From the NCBI RefSeq assembly GCF_900105725.1, contig NZ_FNLM01000034.1:3224001-3288000 (forward strand): a stretch of DNA of 64,000 bases, given 5' to 3'. The position numbers and the translations under genes are program-made. Each line of letters opens with the position of its first letter. Position 1 is the stretch's first letter. Origin of the DNA: Gordonia westfalica. GTDB taxonomy: Bacteria; Actinomycetota; Actinomycetes; Mycobacteriales; Mycobacteriaceae. This document shows, piece after piece, positions 5,520 through 24,656 of this stretch. The notes under the pieces are model-generated. The model was not told the origin of the DNA. It made no database searches and saw only the letters and a list, made by a program, of their open reading frames with translations.

Positions 5520-6836
5520 TCAGGCCTTGGGCCGGTTGTCCACGAGTCGCTTGGCCTTGCCCGTCGAACGGAACAGGACACCGGATTCGACGACATCCAC
5601 CGCCACGCTGACGCCGATCCGGTCCTTGATCAACGACTGCAGTTGGGCGGCGGCCGCTCCGCGGTGATCGCCGGAGACATCGTGGCGGTACTCGACTTTC
5701 ACCGTCATCTGGTCCATGCGTCCGGGCCGCTCCAGCACACACTGGAACTGCGGGGCCAGCGTCGGAACGCCCAGGATGAGTTCCTCTATCTGGGTCGGGA
5801 ACAGATTCACTCCGCGCAGGATGATCATGTCGTCGGTCCGGCCGGTCACCTTCTGCATACGGCGCATGGATCGCGCGGTCCCGGGGAGCAGCCTGGTCAG
5901 GTCGCGCGTGCGGTATCGGATGATCGGCATGGCTTCCTTGGTGAGCGAGGTGAACACCAGCTCACCCTCCTCCCCGTCGGGAAGCACCTCACCGGTCATC
6001 GGATCGATGATCTCCGGATAGAAGTGATCCTCCCAGATATGCAGTCCATCTTTGGTTTCCACACATTCCTGCGCGACCCCGGGCCCCATGACCTCCGAGA
6101 GGCCATAGATGTCGACCGCGTCCATCCCGAGCTGCTGCTCGAGTTCACGCCGCATCTGCTCGGTCCACGGCTCGGCACCGAACACTCCGGTGCGCAGCGA
6201 GGTCGTGGTCGGGTCGATCCCCTTCGCGAGCATCGCGTCGACGATGGTCAGCATGTACGACGGCGTCACCATGATCGCGTCCGGCCGGAAGTCCTCGATC
6301 AGCTGAATCTGTCGTTCGGTCATGCCTCCCGACATGGGGGTCACCGTGCAGCCCAGACGTTCTGCTCCATAGTGGGCCCCGAGACCGCCGGTGAACAGGC
6401 CATACCCGTAGGCGACGTGCACCTTGTCACCAGGCCGCACACCACCCGCACGCAGGCTGCGGGCCACCAGGTCTGCCCAGGTGTCCAGGTCGCGGGCGGT
6501 GTACCCGACCACCGTCGGCCGTCCGGTGGTACCCGATGACGCGTGGATCCGCGATACCTGATCCTGCGGTACCGCCAGCATGCCGAACGGATAGTTCTCC
6601 CGCAGATCGTTTTTCGCGGTGAACGGGAACAGTCGCAGGTCGGACAGTTCCTGAAGGTCGTCGGGGTGTACACCTCGTGCGTCGAACGCCGCGCGGTAAT
6701 GCGGGACGTTGTCATATGCGTGCCGCAGCGACCACTTCAGCCGCGCAAGTTGGGTTGCCGCGATCTGGTCACGAGAGGCGAACTCCAGGTTCGACTCGGG
6801 GCTGCCGGCGGTGGGTCGGGAAAGGGTGCTGGTCAT
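5520..6836 (-). CDS. paaK: phenylacetate-CoA ligase PaaK
   Basis: ATP-dependent ligase that converts phenylacetate to phenylacetyl-CoA, the first step of aerobic phenylacetate breakdown in the cytosol. The 438-residue length is normal for PaaK. The adenylate-forming motif SSGTTGRPTVVGYT, the IYGLSEVMGPGVAQEC segment, YRTRDLTRLLPG and GRTDDMIILRGVNLFPTQIEE hinge region are all present. The ATG at 6836 has a CTGGAG ribosome site. It follows paaE by 19 bases and is the last gene of the paaABCDE-K transcript. The downstream hairpin at 5465-5505 ends the operon. Confidence 0.96.
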   Translation of the reverse strand: MTSTLSRPTAGSPESNLEFASRDQIAATQLARLKWSLRHAYDNVPHYRAAFDARGVHPDDLQELSDLRLFPFTAKNDLRENYPFGMLAVPQDQVSRIHASSGTTGRPTVVGYTARDLDTWADLVARSLRAGGVRPGDKVHVAYGYGLFTGGLGAHYGAERLGCTVTPMSGGMTERQIQLIEDFRPDAIMVTPSYMLTIVDAMLAKGIDPTTTSLRTGVFGAEPWTEQMRRELEQQLGMDAVDIYGLSEVMGPGVAQECVETKDGLHIWEDHFYPEIIDPMTGEVLPDGEEGELVFTSLTKEAMPIIRYRTRDLTRLLPGTARSMRRMQKVTGRTDDMIILRGVNLFPTQIEELILGVPTLAPQFQCVLERPGRMDQMTVKVEYRHDVSGDHRGAAAAQLQSLIKDRIGVSVAVDVVESGVLFRSTGKAKRLVDNRPKA

Positions 6837-16723: not shown

Positions 16724-16808
16724 CGGCGTGCCTCCGCGCATCACCGACGTCATCCACAGCGCCGACGAGTAGCCTCCGGAGGCCACTCTGTCGACTAGGG
16801 TCTGCGGT

Positions 16809-17444
16809 GTGGAGTTCCTGCTGATCATCGTCGTGGCACTGCTCGCGATCATCGCGGTGGTCGTCATCTTCAACTTCCTGGGCAACCGCAAGGCCCGACA
16901 AGCCGAGGCCGACGCCCTGCGCAACCGCACCTACCGGCCCGGCGACCCCTTCTCCTCGGCCGACGACGACTCGGTCTACGGCGACCCGCGCGAGCTCAAG
17001 CCCGGCGACCTCGTCGAACTGCGCGGGGAGACGTACGCGGTGCGCGGCACGGTGCGACTGACCCAGGACGGCTACACCTGGACCGAGAACTTCCTCGACA
17101 CGGGACTCGGCGCCAAGGCGTGGATCTCGGTCGAGGACGATCCCGACCTCGAGGTCGTGCTGTGGCATGAGCTGTCCGGCGTCGTCGCCGAGCCCGGACC
17201 CGACACGGTCGAGGTCGAGGGCCGCCGCTATCACTCCGAGGAGGCCGGCAGTGCGCGGTTCACCTCGGCGGGCACCACCGGGGTCGCGACCTCCGGCCGG
17301 ATGGCCTACCACGACTACCAGGCAGGGGACGACCGGTTGTCCTTCGAAGACTACGGCAGCGGCTGGGAATGCGCGCGCGGCGAGCTCCTCACCCGGGCCG
17401 ATTACCGGATCTTCCCCAGCAACCCCTCCGACCAGAACATCTGA
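16809..17444 (+). CDS. DUF4178 domain membrane protein
   Basis: 211 residues: one N-terminal membrane helix (FLLIIVVALLAIIAVVVIFNFLG), a short charged linker, then a DUF4178 beta-rich domain (LKPGDLVELRGETYAVRGTVRLTQDGYTWTENFLDTG, then WISVEDDPDLEVVLWHE). DUF4178 function is not established; such proteins co-occur with DUF350 and aminopropyltransferases. GTG start at 16809. First gene of a five-gene operon through 20613; likely a cytoplasmic domain tethered to the membrane. Confidence 0.82.
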   Translation: MEFLLIIVVALLAIIAVVVIFNFLGNRKARQAEADALRNRTYRPGDPFSSADDDSVYGDPRELKPGDLVELRGETYAVRGTVRLTQDGYTWTENFLDTGLGAKAWISVEDDPDLEVVLWHELSGVVAEPGPDTVEVEGRRYHSEEAGSARFTSAGTTGVATSGRMAYHDYQAGDDRLSFEDYGSGWECARGELLTRADYRIFPSNPSDQNI

Positions 17445-17466
17445 GCGACGAAGGACTGCGAGACAC

Positions 17467-18003
17467 ATGTCAGAACAGCCCGGCGTGGCCGTCGCCCGCC
17501 TGCCCGTTGCCTACGCAGACACCGGTGCGGCCCAGCTCGGCTTCTCCCTCGACGCCGCGCTGCAGGAACCCCTGGCCCGGGAAGACGGGAAGATCGACGG
17601 CATCACCGTGTCCGTCCGGTTGCTCGGTGCAAGCCATCAGATCGTCGTCGACGACGGCGCGCGGCGCATCTGCGAGACCGTCGCGTGCCTGCCCGACGTG
17701 ACCTCGGCCCTGCCCGAGAACTTCCAGGAGAGCGGTTACGTCTTCAGCTCCCGGATCGAGAAGGTCACCGAGCACCAGTTGGCCGCGCTCGTCGAACAAC
17801 TCGGGGTCCGCGTCACCGAACAGATGGCATCGGGCAATCCGAGTGTGATGGGCGTCTTCCCGGGCGATCCCCACGCGGTGACCGCGATCGTCTCCGACTC
17901 GTCGGCGGAGGAGATCTCGTGGCACACCTGGCACACCTACCCGCAGGCCGGTGAGGTGGTCATCACGACCAGCGTGATCAACCGCGGGGCCGCGCGAGCA
18001 TGA
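17467..18003 (+). CDS. DUF2617 family protein
   Basis: A 178-residue soluble protein. The first half (DTGAAQLGFSLDAALQEPL, VSVRLLGASHQIVVDDGARRICETVACLP) and the C-terminal half (WHTWHTYPQAGEVVITTSVI) match the DUF2617 family, which is actinobacterial and uncharacterised. No catalytic motif is evident. It starts 22 bases after the DUF4178 gene and overlaps the DUF4247 gene as ATGA, so it belongs to that operon. Confidence 0.78.
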   Translation: MSEQPGVAVARLPVAYADTGAAQLGFSLDAALQEPLAREDGKIDGITVSVRLLGASHQIVVDDGARRICETVACLPDVTSALPENFQESGYVFSSRIEKVTEHQLAALVEQLGVRVTEQMASGNPSVMGVFPGDPHAVTAIVSDSSAEEISWHTWHTYPQAGEVVITTSVINRGAARA

Positions 18004-18539
18004 CCCACCCACCCCCGTCCCCCGACCAGCCGGCGCCCGATCCGCGCCGCCGGCTCAACAGGATCCGCAACATCATCATCGGCGTCATCGTGGTGATCAC
18101 GATCTTCGCCTTGCTCGGCGCATGCGGTGCCCGGGCCCTGCGCGGCGGCGGGCTGGGCGGTTCGGCCCGCGACTACATCTCGCAGAACTACGAACGCAAC
18201 ACCACGCTCGACGACGGGGACGTGGACGCCTACGTGGCCGAGGGCACCCCCGCCGAGGTGGCCGAGGACATCCGCGACGCCGAGCGCCCCACCGACCAGC
18301 GCGCCGGGACGTCGGGAACCGGCAATGTCGCGGGCACCCAGTTCCTCCAGTACCCCGACTATCTGGTCGCTCTGTTTCCCTACGCCGCCAACCAGACCCG
18401 CGTGATGCTGAGCCGCGATTACCGATCGGGCTACAACCGGTACCACAACTACGTCGGCGCCTATTGGGTTCCGACGCCGGGATATTCCGGCAGCGGGAGC
18501 AGCAACCGCGGCGGCGGCAGTGGAGGTGGCGGCAAATGA
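18000..18539 (+). CDS. DUF4247 family membrane protein
   Basis: 179 residues: basic N-terminus, a membrane helix at about 24-42 (NIIIGVIVVITIFALLGAC) that ends in LGAC, a possible lipobox with Cys42 although the preceding region is long, then an extracytoplasmic domain with DYISQNYERN and QFLQYPDYLVALFPYAANQTRVMLSRDYRSGYNRYHNYVG, and a Gly/Ser-rich tail. DUF4247 has no known function. It may be a lipoprotein or a single-pass membrane protein. Third gene of the DUF4178 operon. Confidence 0.75.
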   Translation: MTHPPPSPDQPAPDPRRRLNRIRNIIIGVIVVITIFALLGACGARALRGGGLGGSARDYISQNYERNTTLDDGDVDAYVAEGTPAEVAEDIRDAERPTDQRAGTSGTGNVAGTQFLQYPDYLVALFPYAANQTRVMLSRDYRSGYNRYHNYVGAYWVPTPGYSGSGSSNRGGGSGGGGK

Positions 18540-18608
18540 CTGCCCTCCAGAGTTCTCGCGATCGATCCCCCCAGACCGAAACCACGGCCCGAACCCACGG
18601 AGACGACC

Positions 18609-19034
18609 ATGCTCGCTGACCTGACCGAGAACGCCTACGCCGCAGGTGCCTATGCGGGCGTCGGAGTGATCCTGATGATCGTGTCCTTCGCGATCGTCGA
18701 TCTGCTGACCCCGGGCAAGCTGCGTCAACAGGTCTGGTCCGAACGCAACCGCAATGCCGGAATCCTGGTCGGCGCCAACCTCTTCGCGGTCGCGATCATC
18801 GTGACCGCCGCCATCGTGGCCAGCGAGGGCCACCTGCTCGAGGGACTCACCTACACGGTGGTCTACTCGGCGATCGGCCTGGTCGTGATGGGGGTGACCT
18901 TCCTGGTCATCGATGCGCTCACCCCCGGCAGACTCGGGGAGATCCTCGTGCAGCCGGAGAGCCATCCGGCGGTGTGGGTGCAGGCCATCGCGCACATCGG
19001 GGTGGCCATCATCATCGCCGCCTCCATCCTGTGA
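18609..19034 (+). CDS. DUF350 membrane protein
   Basis: 141 residues with four predicted membrane helices and internal two-fold similarity: VDLLTPGKLRQQVWSERNRNAG and IDALTPGRLGEILVQPESHPAVW follow helices 1 and 3. This is DUF350 (YjfL-like). Function unknown. It starts 69 bases after the DUF4247 gene and is followed after 13 bases by the aminopropyltransferase gene. A paralogue with a frameshift lies at 36005-36432. Confidence 0.85.
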   Translation: MLADLTENAYAAGAYAGVGVILMIVSFAIVDLLTPGKLRQQVWSERNRNAGILVGANLFAVAIIVTAAIVASEGHLLEGLTYTVVYSAIGLVVMGVTFLVIDALTPGRLGEILVQPESHPAVWVQAIAHIGVAIIIAASIL

Positions 19035-19047
19035 CTACCCACATCCT

Positions 19048-20613
19048 GTGACACTCACCGACACCGCGACCGAACCGCTCTCCGCACGACCACGATTCGC
19101 GCGGTCCGCCCTGCTGGCCGTGGTGTTCGTCTGCGCCGCCTGCGGTCTGGTGTACGAGCTCGCGCTGGTGTCCCTGGGTTCCTTCCTGATCGGCAACACC
19201 GCGACACAGGCATCGATCGTCCTCGCGGTGATGGTGTTCGCGATGGGCGTCGGCTCGCTCGCCGCGAAACCGCTACAGCCCCAGTCGGTCACCGCCTTCG
19301 CGGTCATCGAGTTGTTGCTGGCACTGCTGGGCGGCCTGTCGGTGATGGCGCTCTATGCCGCCTTCGCCTACCTGGAGCTCTACACGCCGGCACTCATCGT
19401 GGTGGCGTTCGTCCTCGGCGTCCTCATCGGGGCGGAGATCCCGCTGCTGATGGTGCTCCTGCAACGAATCCGCCGCCAGGAGCCGGGTGCCGCGGTCGCG
19501 GACATGTTCGCCGTCGACTACATCGGCGCCCTGATCGGCGGCCTCTGCTTCCCGTTCCTGTTGCTCCCGTTGTTCGGTCAGCTCCGCGGGGCCCTCGTCG
19601 TCGGGCTCGTCAATGCCGCGGCCGGTTGCTTCCTGGTCTTCGTCATCTTCCGGAAGTCGTTGAGCCGCAGCCACCTCGTCCTGCTGTCCGCCGGGGCGCT
19701 GGCGGTGGTCGCGGCGCTCGTCGCCGGCCTGCTGTTGTCGGCCCGGTTCGAGGTGACGGCACGGCAGGCGCTCTACCGCGACCCGATCGTGGCCGCCGCG
19801 CGCAGTGCGTACCAGGACATCGTGATCACCGAGAAGTCCACCGGCGCAGGCCCCGACACCCGGCTCTACCTCAACGGCGACCTGCAGTTCTCCTCCGTCG
19901 ACGAGCACCGCTATCACGAGGCTCTCGTCCATCCGGCGATGTCGGGTGCGCATTCGTCGGTACTCGTCCTCGGCGGTGGCGACGGCCTCGCGCTGCGCGA
20001 AGTACTGCGGTACCCCGATGCGCAGGACGTGACCCTCGTCGAACTCGACCCGGAGATGATCCGGCTGGCCCGGACCGATCCTCGCCTGACCTCGCTCAAT
20101 CAGGGGTCGATGACCGACCGGCGGGCGGAGGTGGTGACCGCCGACGCGTTCAGCTGGCTACGCCAGACCGACCGGCGCTTCGACGTGATCATCGTCGACA
20201 TGCCGGACCCGGACGACTCGGCCACCGCCAAGCTGTATTCCACCGAGTTCTACGGGCTCGTTCGCGCACACCTCGCCGACGACGGCCGCGTGGTGGTGCA
20301 GGCGGGCTCGCCGTACTTCGCACCGAAGTCGTTCTGGTGCATCGCCTCGACCCTGCGCGAGGCCGGCCTGGCCGCGACGCCTTACCACGTCGATGTTCCG
20401 GCGTTCGGCGACTGGGGTTTTCACCTCGCCGGCACCGGCGGTCCGATCAACCCGACCGTGAACGCCCCCGGGGCCCTGCGTTTCCTGAGTGCCGAACAGC
20501 TGACCGCGGCGACGGTCTTCCCTCTCGACCGCCGGCCACTCGACCTGCCGCCGTCGACCCTGATGGACCCGCGGATCCTGCGTTACGCGCAGGGCGAGTG
20601 GGCCACCTACTGA
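19048..20613 (+). CDS. membrane-fused polyamine aminopropyltransferase (SpeE-like)
   Basis: 521 residues. The N-terminal half (about 18-230) has some seven membrane helices. The C-terminal half (about 240-521) is a spermidine-synthase domain: YQDIVITE near 255, VLVLGGGDGLALREVLRYP (SAM-type nucleotide loop, near 306-322), VELDPEM, and VDMPDPDD near 384, equivalent to the catalytic DxxDP of SpeE. It would transfer aminopropyl from decarboxylated S-adenosylmethionine to an amine at the membrane; the acceptor is unknown and may not be putrescine. GTG start at 19048, chosen as the first start after the DUF350 stop that gives the family N-terminus. Last gene of the DUF4178 operon. Confidence 0.87.
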   Translation: MTLTDTATEPLSARPRFARSALLAVVFVCAACGLVYELALVSLGSFLIGNTATQASIVLAVMVFAMGVGSLAAKPLQPQSVTAFAVIELLLALLGGLSVMALYAAFAYLELYTPALIVVAFVLGVLIGAEIPLLMVLLQRIRRQEPGAAVADMFAVDYIGALIGGLCFPFLLLPLFGQLRGALVVGLVNAAAGCFLVFVIFRKSLSRSHLVLLSAGALAVVAALVAGLLLSARFEVTARQALYRDPIVAAARSAYQDIVITEKSTGAGPDTRLYLNGDLQFSSVDEHRYHEALVHPAMSGAHSSVLVLGGGDGLALREVLRYPDAQDVTLVELDPEMIRLARTDPRLTSLNQGSMTDRRAEVVTADAFSWLRQTDRRFDVIIVDMPDPDDSATAKLYSTEFYGLVRAHLADDGRVVVQAGSPYFAPKSFWCIASTLREAGLAATPYHVDVPAFGDWGFHLAGTGGPINPTVNAPGALRFLSAEQLTAATVFPLDRRPLDLPPSTLMDPRILRYAQGEWATY

Positions 20614-20756
20614 ACGCCCTCCTCACAGAAGTCGCATAACGTTGCGCACCGCAACACGATTCGCGACACTCGGCTCAGGACGTTCCGGTTGCCGGTGTCG
20701 GACGAAGGCGTCTGAGGCACCCCTGGCGGTTCACCGTGCCAACTAGGGTTGGCGAC

Positions 20757-21947
20757 ATGTCGAGCGAAGTCGCGATCGTCGGATCGATCCTGCTGCTGAT
20801 CATGGTCCTCGGGCTGGTCACGCTGGTCCGGACACGTCGCCAGGTCACCACGCCCACCGAACGTGCGGTGCACATGGCCCTGCACACCGCGTCGCTGGCA
20901 GCGCGGTCGCTGCGCACCGGACTGTCGGAGGAGTCCGCACGGGAAGCCCTTCCGCACCTGCGGACGCTGACCTCGGCCGAGGCCGTCGCCCTCTTCGACG
21001 ACGAGCCGCGCCGACTCGCCCACGACCCGGACGACGACGCGATCTGGGATCCCGACATGCTGCGGGAAGCCGCCAGGGCCGCCGCGTCGGCGAAGGGCGA
21101 TCAGCGTCGGGTCCTGGTGTCCGATCCGTGCGGGGCGGAGTCACCGGTGCGGGCGCTGGTCGCACAGCCGCTCCTCGCCGGCGACGTCAATGTCGGTGTC
21201 CTCGTGGTCGCCACGACCCGCCGTCCGGGTCCGGGCATGCTCGGCGCCGTCGCCGAGGTCGCCCGTTACGTGTCGAGTCAGATCGAACTGGCCGAACTCG
21301 ACGCCTCGCGCGCCCGACTGGACCGGGCCGAGGTGCTCGCGCTGCGCGCGCAGATCAGCCCGCATTTCATCTACAACGCCCTCAACACGATCGCCTCGTT
21401 CGTCCGCACCGACCCCGACCGCGCCCGTGAACTCGTGCTCGACTTCGCCGACTTCACCCGCTACTCGTTCCGCGCGAGCGGCGAATACACGGTCCTGGCA
21501 GACGAACTGCGCAACATCGACCGCTACCTGACCCTCGAACGTGCCCGGTTCGGCAACTCACTCGACGTGAAACTCCATGTCGCGCCGGAGGTCCTGAACG
21601 TCGTCGTACCGTTCCTGGCGCTGCAGCCGCTCGTGGAGAACGCGGTCCGCCACGGACTGGCGTCGAAGGGCGGTGGCACCATCACGATCACCGCGGCCGA
21701 CGAGGGGGCCGACTGCGTGATCACGGTCGAGGACGACGGCGTCGGCATGGACCCCGAACTCCTGCGCACCGGCGCGCTCGACGCCCTCGACCACAGCGAG
21801 GGCGCCCACGTCGGGCTCACCAACGTCGACCATCGCCTCCGCGCGGCCTTCGGCAACGACTACGGACTGGTGGTCGAGACGGCCGTCGGCGCGGGCACCA
21901 AGGTCGGCATCCGGGTGCCGAAGTTCCGGGCCGGCATCCGAGCCTGA
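20757..21947 (+). CDS. LytS-type sensor histidine kinase
   Basis: 396 residues. One N-terminal membrane helix (VAIVGSILLLIMVLGLVTLV), a GAF-like central domain, then the His_kinase (PF06580) phosphoacceptor region LRAQISPHFIYNALNTIASFVRTDPDRARELVLDFADFTRYSFR with His near residue 200, and an HATPase domain (LQPLVENAVRHGLASKGGG, VEDDGVGMDP, HVGLTNVDHRL). This is the LytS/BtsS class that pairs with LytTR regulators. The ATG at 20757 follows a TAGGGT -10-like hexamer by 7 bases and looks leaderless. The cognate regulator is probably the gene at 23842, 1.9 kb away. Confidence 0.9.
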   Translation: MSSEVAIVGSILLLIMVLGLVTLVRTRRQVTTPTERAVHMALHTASLAARSLRTGLSEESAREALPHLRTLTSAEAVALFDDEPRRLAHDPDDDAIWDPDMLREAARAAASAKGDQRRVLVSDPCGAESPVRALVAQPLLAGDVNVGVLVVATTRRPGPGMLGAVAEVARYVSSQIELAELDASRARLDRAEVLALRAQISPHFIYNALNTIASFVRTDPDRARELVLDFADFTRYSFRASGEYTVLADELRNIDRYLTLERARFGNSLDVKLHVAPEVLNVVVPFLALQPLVENAVRHGLASKGGGTITITAADEGADCVITVEDDGVGMDPELLRTGALDALDHSEGAHVGLTNVDHRLRAAFGNDYGLVVETAVGAGTKVGIRVPKFRAGIRA

Positions 21948-21966: not shown

Positions 21967-22953
21967 CTAGAAGGCCGCCTTCGCCGCCAGGAACGTCACG
22001 GCCGCGAACACAGCGGCGGCCGGGAAGGTGGTCACCCAGGCGGCGGCCATGTTCCCTGCGGTACCCCACCGCACGGCGCTCGTGCGCTTGGTCGATCCGA
22101 CGCCCATGATCGCCGAGGAGATCACGTGGGTGGTCGAGATGGGTGCGCCCAGGCCGGCCGAGGCGACGTAGAGCACCGAAGCGGCCGTCGCTTCGGCGGC
22201 GAAGCCCTGCGGCGGGTCCAGTTCGATGATCTTGCGCCCGAGGGTGCGCATGATCCGCATACCGCCCGTGGCGGTGCCGATGGCCAGGACCACGGCCGTC
22301 AGCAGGAAGCACCACAGCGGGATCGAATAATCGTCCTGGTAGCCCGCGACGACGAGTGCGAGGACCACGATGCCCATCGTCTTGGCGGCGTCCTGCATAC
22401 CGTGACCGAAGGCCATCATGGCGGCTGACACCGTCTGCGCATGCCGGAACCGGCGGCCGGTGATCGCCGGCGACGCATTGCGGAAAAGCCACATGATCGC
22501 CAGCATCGCCGCCGCGCCCAGCAGGAATCCGGCGAGCGGGGAGAGCACCATCGGCAGCAGGATCTTCTCCACGACGCCGGACCAGAGCACGGTGACCCCG
22601 GCGACCAGGGCCGCACCCACCATGCCGCCGATGAGCGCATGCGACGAGGACGACGGGAGGCCGAACCACCACGTGATGAGGTTCCAGGTGATCGCTCCCA
22701 CGAGGGCACATCCGACGAGCAACAGCGCGTCCGGGCCCGCCTTGAGGTCGATGATGCCCGAGCCGACCGTACTGGCCACCTTGGCACCGAAGAAGGAGCC
22801 GATCAGATTGCCGACGGCGGCCATCGCCAGTGCCGCGCGCAGCGTCAGGGCACGGGTCGACACCGAGGTCGCGATCGCATTGGCAGAGTCGTGGAAACCG
22901 TTGGTGAACGTGAAGGCCATGGCAAGGCCGATCACCACGAGAAGTGCGAACAC
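21967..22953 (-). CDS. PiT family inorganic phosphate transporter
   Basis: A 328-residue integral membrane protein of the low-affinity PitA/PiT family. Both family repeats are present: GFHDSANAIATSV near the N-terminus and PISTTHVISSAIMGVG near the C-terminus, along with LPSSSSHALIGG and GHGMQDAAKTMG. Phosphate-metal symport with protons is expected. I chose GTG 22953, eight bases after the DUF47 stop, because it gives the usual VFALLVVIGLAMAF opening; its ribosome site is rather far. Second gene of the DUF47-pit operon. Confidence 0.92.
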   Translation of the reverse strand: MFALLVVIGLAMAFTFTNGFHDSANAIATSVSTRALTLRAALAMAAVGNLIGSFFGAKVASTVGSGIIDLKAGPDALLLVGCALVGAITWNLITWWFGLPSSSSHALIGGMVGAALVAGVTVLWSGVVEKILLPMVLSPLAGFLLGAAAMLAIMWLFRNASPAITGRRFRHAQTVSAAMMAFGHGMQDAAKTMGIVVLALVVAGYQDDYSIPLWCFLLTAVVLAIGTATGGMRIMRTLGRKIIELDPPQGFAAEATAASVLYVASAGLGAPISTTHVISSAIMGVGSTKRTSAVRWGTAGNMAAAWVTTFPAAAVFAAVTFLAAKAAF

Positions 22954-22960
22954 AGGTGTG

Positions 22961-23578
22961 TCACGACTCCTTGAGGACGATGGTCTCGACGATGTTGGCG
23001 ACCTTCTCGAAGGAATCCGCCGCATCCTCGAGTTCGTCGGCGACGTCCTTGAGCTTCATCACCGTCAGCGCGTCGAGGTGCCCGTCGAACAGGTACGCGA
23101 GGAACGTCCGGTACGTGTGATCGGCCCGGTTCTCGAGCGCGTTGATCTCGATCCAGTACCGCTCCAGGTCTTTCATCCCGGCCAGTCGCGGCATCGCGTC
23201 GGCGGTGACGCTCGCGGAGGTGTCGAGGATCTCGATCATCTCCCGCAGGTGCTGCGGGAGCTCGGTGACGCCGTAGAGGGCCATGAGGTGGGTCGCCGCC
23301 TCGATGTGGTCCATGACGTCGTCGAGGCTCGAACCGAGGACGTAGATGTCGGATCGGTCGAACGGCGTGATGAAGCTCGAGTTGACCGTGCGGAACATCT
23401 CGTGCGTGATGCGGTCGCAGTCGTGTTCGAGGTCGACCATCCGGCGCGCGATTCCCTCGAAGTCCGGTTCGGGCTCCAGCAGGCCGGTGAGGGTCTTGGT
23501 CCCATCCGCCAGGCACTGGGCCGAGGACGTGAACAATCCGTAGAAGAGATCGTTCTTGGGTTTGAACCGGGAGAACAC
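22961..23578 (-). CDS. DUF47 (PhoU-like) phosphate transport accessory protein
   Basis: 205-residue all-helical DUF47 protein: VFSRFKPKNDLFYGLFTSSAQ, RMVDLEHDCDRITHEMFRTVNSSFITPFDRSDIYVLGSSLDDVMDHIEAA with conserved metal-binding acidic and His residues. DUF47 genes pair with pit genes and are thought to regulate them, as here. The GTG at 23578 gives the family start; an AGGAAG site precedes it. First gene of the minus-strand pair; divergent from the LytTR regulator. Confidence 0.9.
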   Translation of the reverse strand: MFSRFKPKNDLFYGLFTSSAQCLADGTKTLTGLLEPEPDFEGIARRMVDLEHDCDRITHEMFRTVNSSFITPFDRSDIYVLGSSLDDVMDHIEAATHLMALYGVTELPQHLREMIEILDTSASVTADAMPRLAGMKDLERYWIEINALENRADHTYRTFLAYLFDGHLDALTVMKLKDVADELEDAADSFEKVANIVETIVLKES

Positions 23579-23841
23579 AGTGACTTTCTTCCTATCTTGC
23601 GTCCAACGCATCGAGGCGACGCTGGGCAGCGACTTCCTCGGTGAGTCCGTCTGACGTCGGGATGGCCGTGGACAGGGTAGCGAGACCGCTCGGCGGCCCA
23701 CCCGGCCGACCGGACTTTTTCCGAATTCTCGCGAATCGGGTGTCACACGCTGCGGGCTGTTCCGATCTGTGACGCGGCCCACGCGGTACGATCCTCGTGT
23801 CCGTCGTCGCGCGTCAGGCGCAGTCAGTCGGGAGGTGATGG

Positions 23842-24656
23842 ATGTCCGGGCTGGTGGTGCTCGCGGTCGACGACGAACCCCCTGCTCTCGACGAGCTCCG
23901 ATACCTCCTCGACCGGCAGGAGGACGTCGCCGAGGTGCACGCGGCGACCGACGCGACCGGCGCGCTGCGCGAGCTCAACTCCGGCCGGATCGGCGCGATC
24001 TTCCTCGACATCAACATGCCGGGCCTCTCGGGGCTCGAGCTCGCCGGCGTCCTCGCCAGGTACGCGCAACCACCGGCGATCGTGTTCGTCACCGCGCACG
24101 AGGACAAGGCGGTCCGCGCTTTCGAGGTCGGGGCCGTCGACTATCTGCTGAAACCGCTGCGCGAGGAGCGGCTCACCCAGGCGATCGGACGCGTCCGCGC
24201 CGTCCTCGACGCCCGCACGAAGCCCGCCGAGAAGGCTCCTACCCCGCGCAGGGCGATCCCCGCACTCCCTCCGACGACGTGATCCCGGTCGAGATGAGCG
24301 GGGTGACCTCGTTGGTCCGTCGCGAGTCGATCTCGTGGGTCGAAGCCGTCGGCGACTATGCCCGGTTGCACGCCGAATCGGGCGCCCACCTGGTCCGGAT
24401 ACCGCTCTCGACCCTCGAGTCGCGCTGGCAGGAAAAGGGATTCGCCCGTGTTCACCGTTCCTATCTGGTGGCCTTGCCGATGGTGACCGGCCTACGGGCC
24501 ACCGGGGGCGGGACCGTCGTCAGCATCCGCGCGAACGGGGCGTCGGAAGCGGTGGAACTGCCCGTCAGCCGACGCCAGGTCCGTGAACTGAAGGACCGGC
24601 TCGTCCGAGACCCGCTGCGCCAGTATCGTTCCCCCGCCGTCCGCGACGATGCCTGA
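23842..24656 (+). pseudogene. LytTR response regulator, frameshifted between domains
   Basis: The receiver domain (23842-24240: LAVDDEPPALDEL, phospho-Asp in IFLDINMPG, Thr in VFVTAH, Lys in LLKPL) reads in one frame that stops at 24282. The LytTR DNA-binding domain (SLVRRESISWVEAVGDYARLHAESGAHLVRIPLSTLESRW, FARVHRSYLVAL) follows in another frame to 24656. One extra base near 24268 (CTCCCTCC read as CTCCCCTCC) joins them as IPALPSDDVIPVEM, giving a normal 271-residue regulator. So the gene is either truly broken or carries a one-base sequence error in a C run. The start has a GGAGG site. Expected partner is the LytS kinase at 20757; a likely target is the symporter genes just downstream. Confidence 0.85.

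Follow-up and report, generated by a model that had tools for sequence, protein, structure and literature searches.

DUF2617 as a putative pyruvoyl-dependent S-adenosylmethionine decarboxylase in a membrane aminopropyltransferase operon of Gordonia westfalica

A five-gene operon of Gordonia westfalica, which combines members of the families DUF4178, DUF2617, DUF4247 and DUF350 with a membrane-anchored homologue of the polyamine aminopropyltransferase SpeE, was analyzed within a 64,000-nucleotide stretch of contig NZ_FNLM01000034.1 (positions 3,224,001 to 3,288,000; this whole stretch is referred to as the window). The operon comprises five open frames which lie in one direction on the + strand at 16809-20613, with intergenic spacings of +22, -4, +69 and +13 bases:

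16809..17444, + strand: DUF4178 protein; GTG start; PF13785, E 4.9e-34; one N-terminal membrane helix (3-21)
17467..18003, + strand: DUF2617 protein, 178 amino acids, proposed pyruvoyl-type S-adenosylmethionine decarboxylase; PF10936, E 3.6e-48; AlphaFold2 predicted local distance difference test score 92.6
18000..18539, + strand: DUF4247 protein; PF14042, E 9.5e-28; single N-terminal helix with a lipobox-like LGAC
18609..19034, + strand: DUF350 (YjfL) protein; PF03994, E 2.3e-25; four membrane helices
19048..20613, + strand: membrane aminopropyltransferase homologue, 521 amino acids; GTG start; Spermine_synth, E 2.2e-33; seven helices and SpeE domain

An earlier note on this DNA had described a tightly packed operon (overlaps or gaps up to 69 bases) of the four DUF families, three of them membrane-anchored, and a SpeE-type enzyme joined to about seven membrane helices. 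This description agrees with the present analysis, in which every frame was recovered where it had been placed and matched to its family by Pfam, membrane helices were predicted in DUF350 (four), DUF4178 and DUF4247 (one each), and a hydropathy count gave seven helices for the last protein.

The last gene encodes a PRK03612-type polyamine aminopropyltransferase (NCBIfam NF002956, 686 bits versus a cut-off of 472), and a match above this cut-off defines membrane SpeE throughout. The SpeE motifs, which the note had also claimed to be kept, are intact in the window protein and largely kept in a locus-level set of 137 sequences (redundancy left in), and the active site is not degraded. The conserved Asp columns are D312 (137/137), D334 (136/137), D366 (133/137), D384 (133/137) and D387 (122/137), accompanied by Y289 (127/137) and H290 (120/137), all of which we take to be aminopropyltransferase active-site residues, whereas the Q280 column carries Arg in 52/137 sequences.

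Aminopropyltransferases require decarboxylated S-adenosylmethionine (SAM) as donor. The entire genome (6.4 Mb on 38 contigs, estimated completeness 100%) contains no match to the profile of SAM decarboxylase (AdoMetDC, PF02675), in a search that did not extend to class 2 AdoMetDC (PF01536) or pyruvoyl arginine decarboxylase (PF01862), and the same PF02675 search was positive in 8/14 control genomes; the SpeE-type enzyme is therefore left without a recognised donor supply. The earlier statement that no speD lies nearby can thus be extended to the absence of PF02675 from the entire genome, but it probably overlooks DUF2617, encoded by the second gene of the operon, as the functional counterpart of SpeD.

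Distribution of DUF2617 and AdoMetDC

The occurrence of DUF2617 and AdoMetDC was compared in genomes that carry membrane SpeE. In the order sample, 93 of the 298 genomes had this enzyme, including 73 with DUF2617 only, 18 with AdoMetDC only, one with both and one with neither. The genome with both (G309) has an AdoMetDC match (E 1.1e-10) which contains one stop and lacks the SH...HTWPE core; it was judged not to be a real case because of this loss, and is still counted as having both. The genome with neither (G382) is 82% complete and its SpeE lies at a contig end; it was kept in the counts, as was G302, whose operon is likewise cut by a contig end. In the phylum sample, an even sample of 296 genomes, matches over the cut-off were found for DUF2617 in 16 genomes and for membrane SpeE in 18 (out of 123 with any match at E <= 0.001), and AdoMetDC was present in 30. 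Membrane SpeE was present in all DUF2617 genomes (16/16), two of which also have AdoMetDC, and both membrane-SpeE genomes without DUF2617 carry AdoMetDC (2/2); 16/17 DUF2617 matches were used, the remaining one (G144, E 8.9e-4, on an 8-kb contig) being below the cut-off. The class sample (70 genomes) contained ten genomes with membrane SpeE, nine having DUF2617 (G023 also AdoMetDC) and one AdoMetDC only. These three samples overlap, and a sum of distinct genomes by hand gave 107 with membrane SpeE: 85 with DUF2617 only, three with both, 18 with AdoMetDC only and one with neither. Among 14 named control genomes, including one archaeon, the SpeE profile matched ten, with AdoMetDC in eight and DUF2617 in the remaining two. 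DUF2617 behaves as a replacement for AdoMetDC. It was found in Gordonia, Williamsia, Streptomyces, Kitasatospora, Nocardioides and others, as well as in Corynebacterium glutamicum and Haloferax volcanii; its nearest named protein relatives are from Gordonia, and no match was detected on plasmids.

The linkage between DUF2617 and SpeE is similarly consistent and exceeds what chance would give. Among 80 named DUF2617 loci, which are the best 80 of at least 588 confirmed stretches, membrane SpeE lies downstream on the same strand at 77 (exceptions: L119, L120 and L142), and at 54/80 the DUF2617-SpeE pair stands alone, a reduced unit present in many streptomycetes. From genomes that have AdoMetDC and no DUF2617, 18 operons were read, one of which is cut by a contig end; the other 17 all show DUF4178-DUF4247-DUF350-SpeE in this order. 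The families are therefore conserved neighbours, as had been proposed from the window alone, and co-occurrence was observed at the 77/80 loci and in the 17 readable operons. Ahead of DUF350, 11/17 of these operons have a stretch of 0.7-1.2 kb with other content; in family f83, a stretch of this size separates DUF4247 from DUF350 in 11/12 operons that lack DUF2617.

This f83 stretch (about 3940-5118 in L229, with similar gaps in L230-L236 and L238-L240) reads in L229 as an acidic protein in which two segments are hydrophobic and the end is rich in proline. Genome G128 has two separate SpeE units (L050 and L062): in one, DUF2617 is simply paired with SpeE, and the other is an operon of the order DUF2617-DUF4247-DUF350-SpeE. 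In L247 (near 5645-5923), an AdoMetDC-like stretch is without the SH...HTWPE core. Similarly weak, partial AdoMetDC matches occur in G296 and G322, and two genomes of genus g7 encode a divergent AdoMetDC (SASHLSIHTWPEF; L178 7155-7532 and L179 7610-7987), which is perhaps a natural-product enzyme; in L179 it adjoins a phosphopantetheinyl transferase gene.

Residues and relatives of DUF2617

The following features were assigned in the DUF2617 gene, residue equivalents being given for the AdoMetDC of Thermotoga maritima:

17632..17634, + strand: codon of Ser56 (LGA-S-H), proposed pyruvoyl precursor and equivalent of T. maritima Ser63; invariant in 171/171; N-half alignment non-significant
17686..17688, + strand: codon of Cys74, proposed equivalent of T. 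maritima Cys83; invariant in 171/171; from the strand pattern
17719..18000, + strand: C-terminal half (residues 85-178), AdoMetDC-like beta-alpha-beta-beta-beta-beta unit with Thr139 and TWHTYPQ; from predicted secondary structure
17932..17934, + strand: codon of His156, proposed equivalent of T. maritima His68; invariant in 171/171; from the C-half hhalign alignment

Ser56, Cys74, Thr139 and His156, which were assigned to catalytic positions of AdoMetDC, are invariant in 171/171 DUF2617 sequences, and the site features of AdoMetDC, namely Ser-His (S56-H57), C74 and H156 within TWHxYPQ, are present in the same number. This set is redundant, with an effective number of 71, and leaves out L012 (the window itself again), L015 (a partial gene of G204) and the short P0123. 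The C-terminal half aligns to the HTWPE core of AdoMetDC (hhalign E 1.2e-4), a value equalled by 0/150 shuffles. In the N-terminal half, hhalign sets Ser56 on Ser63 in a non-significant alignment, and the placement is based on this together with strand order. In the AlphaFold model, residues 90-176 weakly matched 3c6k_A 5-120, the AdoMetDC-like domain of human spermine synthase, which was the highest-identity structural match; no AdoMetDC chain was among the 50 structures listed, and PDB sequence searches with DUF2617 gave nothing useful.

Class 1b AdoMetDC (SpeD/SpeH; T. maritima structures 1tlu and 1vr7) has in common with DUF2617 a PHxVT...HTWPE-like core, the Ser-His, Cys and His residues and the link to SpeE, and its strand order, which we take to be beta-alpha-beta-beta-beta-beta, matches that of DUF2617. 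On the other hand, DUF2617 (178 amino acids in the window) lacks the Pfam match, carries the Ser/Cys site and the Thr/His site in different halves of the same chain, and has Ala in place of the Glu before Ser. Class 2 (eukaryotic) AdoMetDC is about twice as long as DUF2617. As is proposed for DUF2617, it is a fusion of two halves, of which the second has no cleavage site (PMC10407285); the other half cleaves itself. DUF2617, by contrast, is bacterial and archaeal. In the N-terminal domain of animal spermine synthase (3c6k) the activity was lost (PMC12803844), whereas DUF2617 keeps Ser, Cys and His.

Putative function and alternative explanations

Based on the donor gap, the complementary distribution and the DUF2617-less operons, DUF2617 is therefore proposed to be a compact two-half pyruvoyl-dependent SAM decarboxylase that feeds membrane SpeE, an assignment which we consider probable. 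Gene content, linkage, the distribution complementary to that of AdoMetDC, the invariant residues and the C-half profile similarity are observed, and we infer self-cleavage, decarboxylase activity, the acceptor and the roles of DUF350, DUF4178 and DUF4247. DUF2617 would cut itself before Ser56 into fragments of about 6 and 13 kDa, Ser56 would become the pyruvoyl group, and SAM would be decarboxylated with Cys74 contributed by the N-terminal half and Thr139/His156 by the C-terminal half. Decarboxylated SAM would then pass to the adjoining membrane-anchored SpeE, which would move the aminopropyl group onto an amine located within or at the membrane. DUF350, DUF4178 and DUF4247 are probably its partners in the membrane and may serve to hold, sense or present this acceptor. 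That the acceptor is an amine of the membrane or envelope is plausible and represents the boldest reading.

Several results weigh against this assignment. The Pfam AdoMet_dc profile (PF02675) matched 0/70 and 0/40 DUF2617 sequences at E <=10, which rules out an AdoMetDC in the Pfam sense; DUF2617 is therefore not filed as a member of that family and is only said to work like it. Related genomes share ancestry. In a quick SpeE tree (55 proteins, Shimodaira-Hasegawa-like approximate likelihood ratio test support only, with a long-branch warning), DUF2617 is absent in two supported places (three with the contig-cut case); with only two to three independent switches, the sign test on independent pairs (p 0.5) is therefore without power. 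Below the SpeE cut-off, a hand count of 19 phylum genomes (SpeE E <1e-35) gave 15 with AdoMetDC and four with neither enzyme, and most weaker SpeE matches in the phylum sample are accompanied by neither.

Some of these observations could also be accommodated if SpeE used SAM itself (methyl or 3-amino-3-carboxypropyl transfer) and DUF2617 were an unrelated co-evolving protein, the complementarity being a matter of lineage. The small number of switches, the Arg in the Q280 column of 52/137 sequences and the weaker SpeE homologues with neither enzyme are in keeping with such a scenario, but most of the 137 sequences retain Asp, Tyr and His at the aminopropyltransferase positions, the control genomes, archaeon included, split identically, and DUF2617 itself resembles AdoMetDC; we regard direct use of SAM as very unlikely. 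It is also conceivable that DUF2617 has an AdoMetDC-like fold and serves SpeE as a non-catalytic partner (a scaffold or a sensor of SAM or decarboxylated SAM), similar to the inactive domain of human spermine synthase (PMC12803844), which is its highest-identity structural match; the adjacency to SpeE at 77/80 loci would fit as well. However, a scaffold need not hold Ser56, Cys74 and His156 invariant, and such a role fails to explain why AdoMetDC is absent where DUF2617 is present and why the operon lacks DUF2617 where AdoMetDC is present, which makes it an unlikely explanation. Alternatively, DUF2617 might be a pyruvoyl enzyme acting on ornithine, arginine or lysine and supply the acceptor amine rather than the donor, considering that SpeD homologues have repeatedly given rise to decarboxylases of ornithine and of arginine (PMC10407285). 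No PF01276 decarboxylase was found by profile search in the window's genome, which has one PF02784 gene, so that the common sources of diamines covered by these searches are absent or unclear there, and in G235, a genome without DUF2617, an ornithine-decarboxylase-type gene lies beside an AdoMetDC fused to a soluble SpeE. This substrate change appears improbable to a high degree, as the donor would still be missing in DUF2617 genomes without AdoMetDC.

The neighbourhood itself has been published. Ravi et al. (2024) reported operons that combine seven-transmembrane (7TM) SpeE with DUF350 and DUF4178, one variant of which contains DUF4247 and DUF2617 (CCP45394.1 and CCP45395.1) and, as in the window, has this pair within a DUF350/polyamine-gene neighbourhood; in the section considered here, DUF2617 is predicted to be a beta-sandwich enzyme with two conserved histidines and conserved Asp and Glu, and is treated as part of a replacement for the CesT/Tir-PspA pair without a connection to AdoMetDC (PMC11237479). 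The association of DUF350 and DUF4178 with PspA and polyamine genes, mentioned in the earlier note, is thus in print there and includes membrane SpeE. A PspA-linked SpeE of the 7TM/major facilitator superfamily type (AAN56744.1) has the same architecture as that of the window and DUF350 and DUF4178 as neighbours (PMC11237479), whereas the operon of the window has DUF2617 and DUF4247 and no PspA pair; a scan of its five genes and of ten neighbouring frames revealed neither PspA nor CesT/Tir genes. The published comparison suggests a replacement of that pair by DUF4247 and DUF2617, and the earlier note had proposed a stress response; an envelope-stress operon of this kind is compatible with the SAM decarboxylase reading as far as physiology is concerned. 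As a competing account of DUF2617 it has hardly any probability: DUF2617 tracks the absence of AdoMetDC, and each of the 17 readable operons that lack DUF2617 still contains DUF4247, so the two do not form one replacement unit.

New in the present analysis are the AdoMetDC-like role proposed for DUF2617, its distribution complementary to that of AdoMetDC and the mapping of its Ser, Cys and His residues. No function for DUF2617 and no link between DUF2617 and AdoMetDC was found in the literature text searched, which lay outside supplements and subscription papers. If the proposed role is true, it would give a function to the DUF2617 family, seen here in the actinobacteria named above and in H. 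volcanii, explain the source of the donor in genomes with membrane SpeE and no recognised SpeD, and offer a handle on the published, unexplained link of membrane SpeE and DUF350 with envelope homeostasis. We also tentatively entertain, as possible though somewhat doubtful, a separate class of compact two-half pyruvoyl AdoMetDC, represented in at least one haloarchaeon as well as in actinobacteria, which would provide decarboxylated SAM for a membrane or envelope acceptor and not for free spermidine, in the absence of a recognised polyamine pathway. A polyamine-independent role of AdoMetDC has reportedly been described by Li et al. in 2019, a paper cited in PMC11237479. Mycobacterium smegmatis is stated to be a polyamine auxotroph without detectable polyamines (PMC8503589). 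Spermidine has been reported in Streptomyces coelicolor (PMC9397018), and speE of M. tuberculosis is referred to as a gene for spermidine synthase (PMC11841054), the latter two genomes being outside the present survey.

Surroundings of the operon

Upstream of the operon are the phenylacetate genes paaZ and paaI and a gene for an EthD protein, and a PF06580-type histidine kinase gene follows downstream. No sigma-70 consensus pair was found at the operon in the promoter/terminator scan, and there were no Rfam matches. One element was assigned ahead of the first gene:

16796..16801, + strand: putative -10 element TAGGGT, 7 bases ahead of GTG 16809

Leaderless starts are usual in actinobacteria. 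The operon (GTG 16809) and the histidine kinase gene (window 20744-20757; ATG 20757) are each preceded by TAGGGT with 7 bases between this element and the start codon, and this repeated spacing suggests that both may be transcribed as leaderless mRNAs and that the kinase may start at ATG 20757, later than its longest frame (20736-21947).

A PIT-type phosphate transporter gene and a DUF47 (PhoU_div) gene lie on the - strand at 21967-23782 of the window, where they separate the histidine kinase gene from that of its regulator. The response regulator of this kinase/LytTR pair is apparently split over two frames, with the receiver at 23842-24282 and LytTR in the frame 23769-24656, which appears to reflect a frameshift or a sequencing error.

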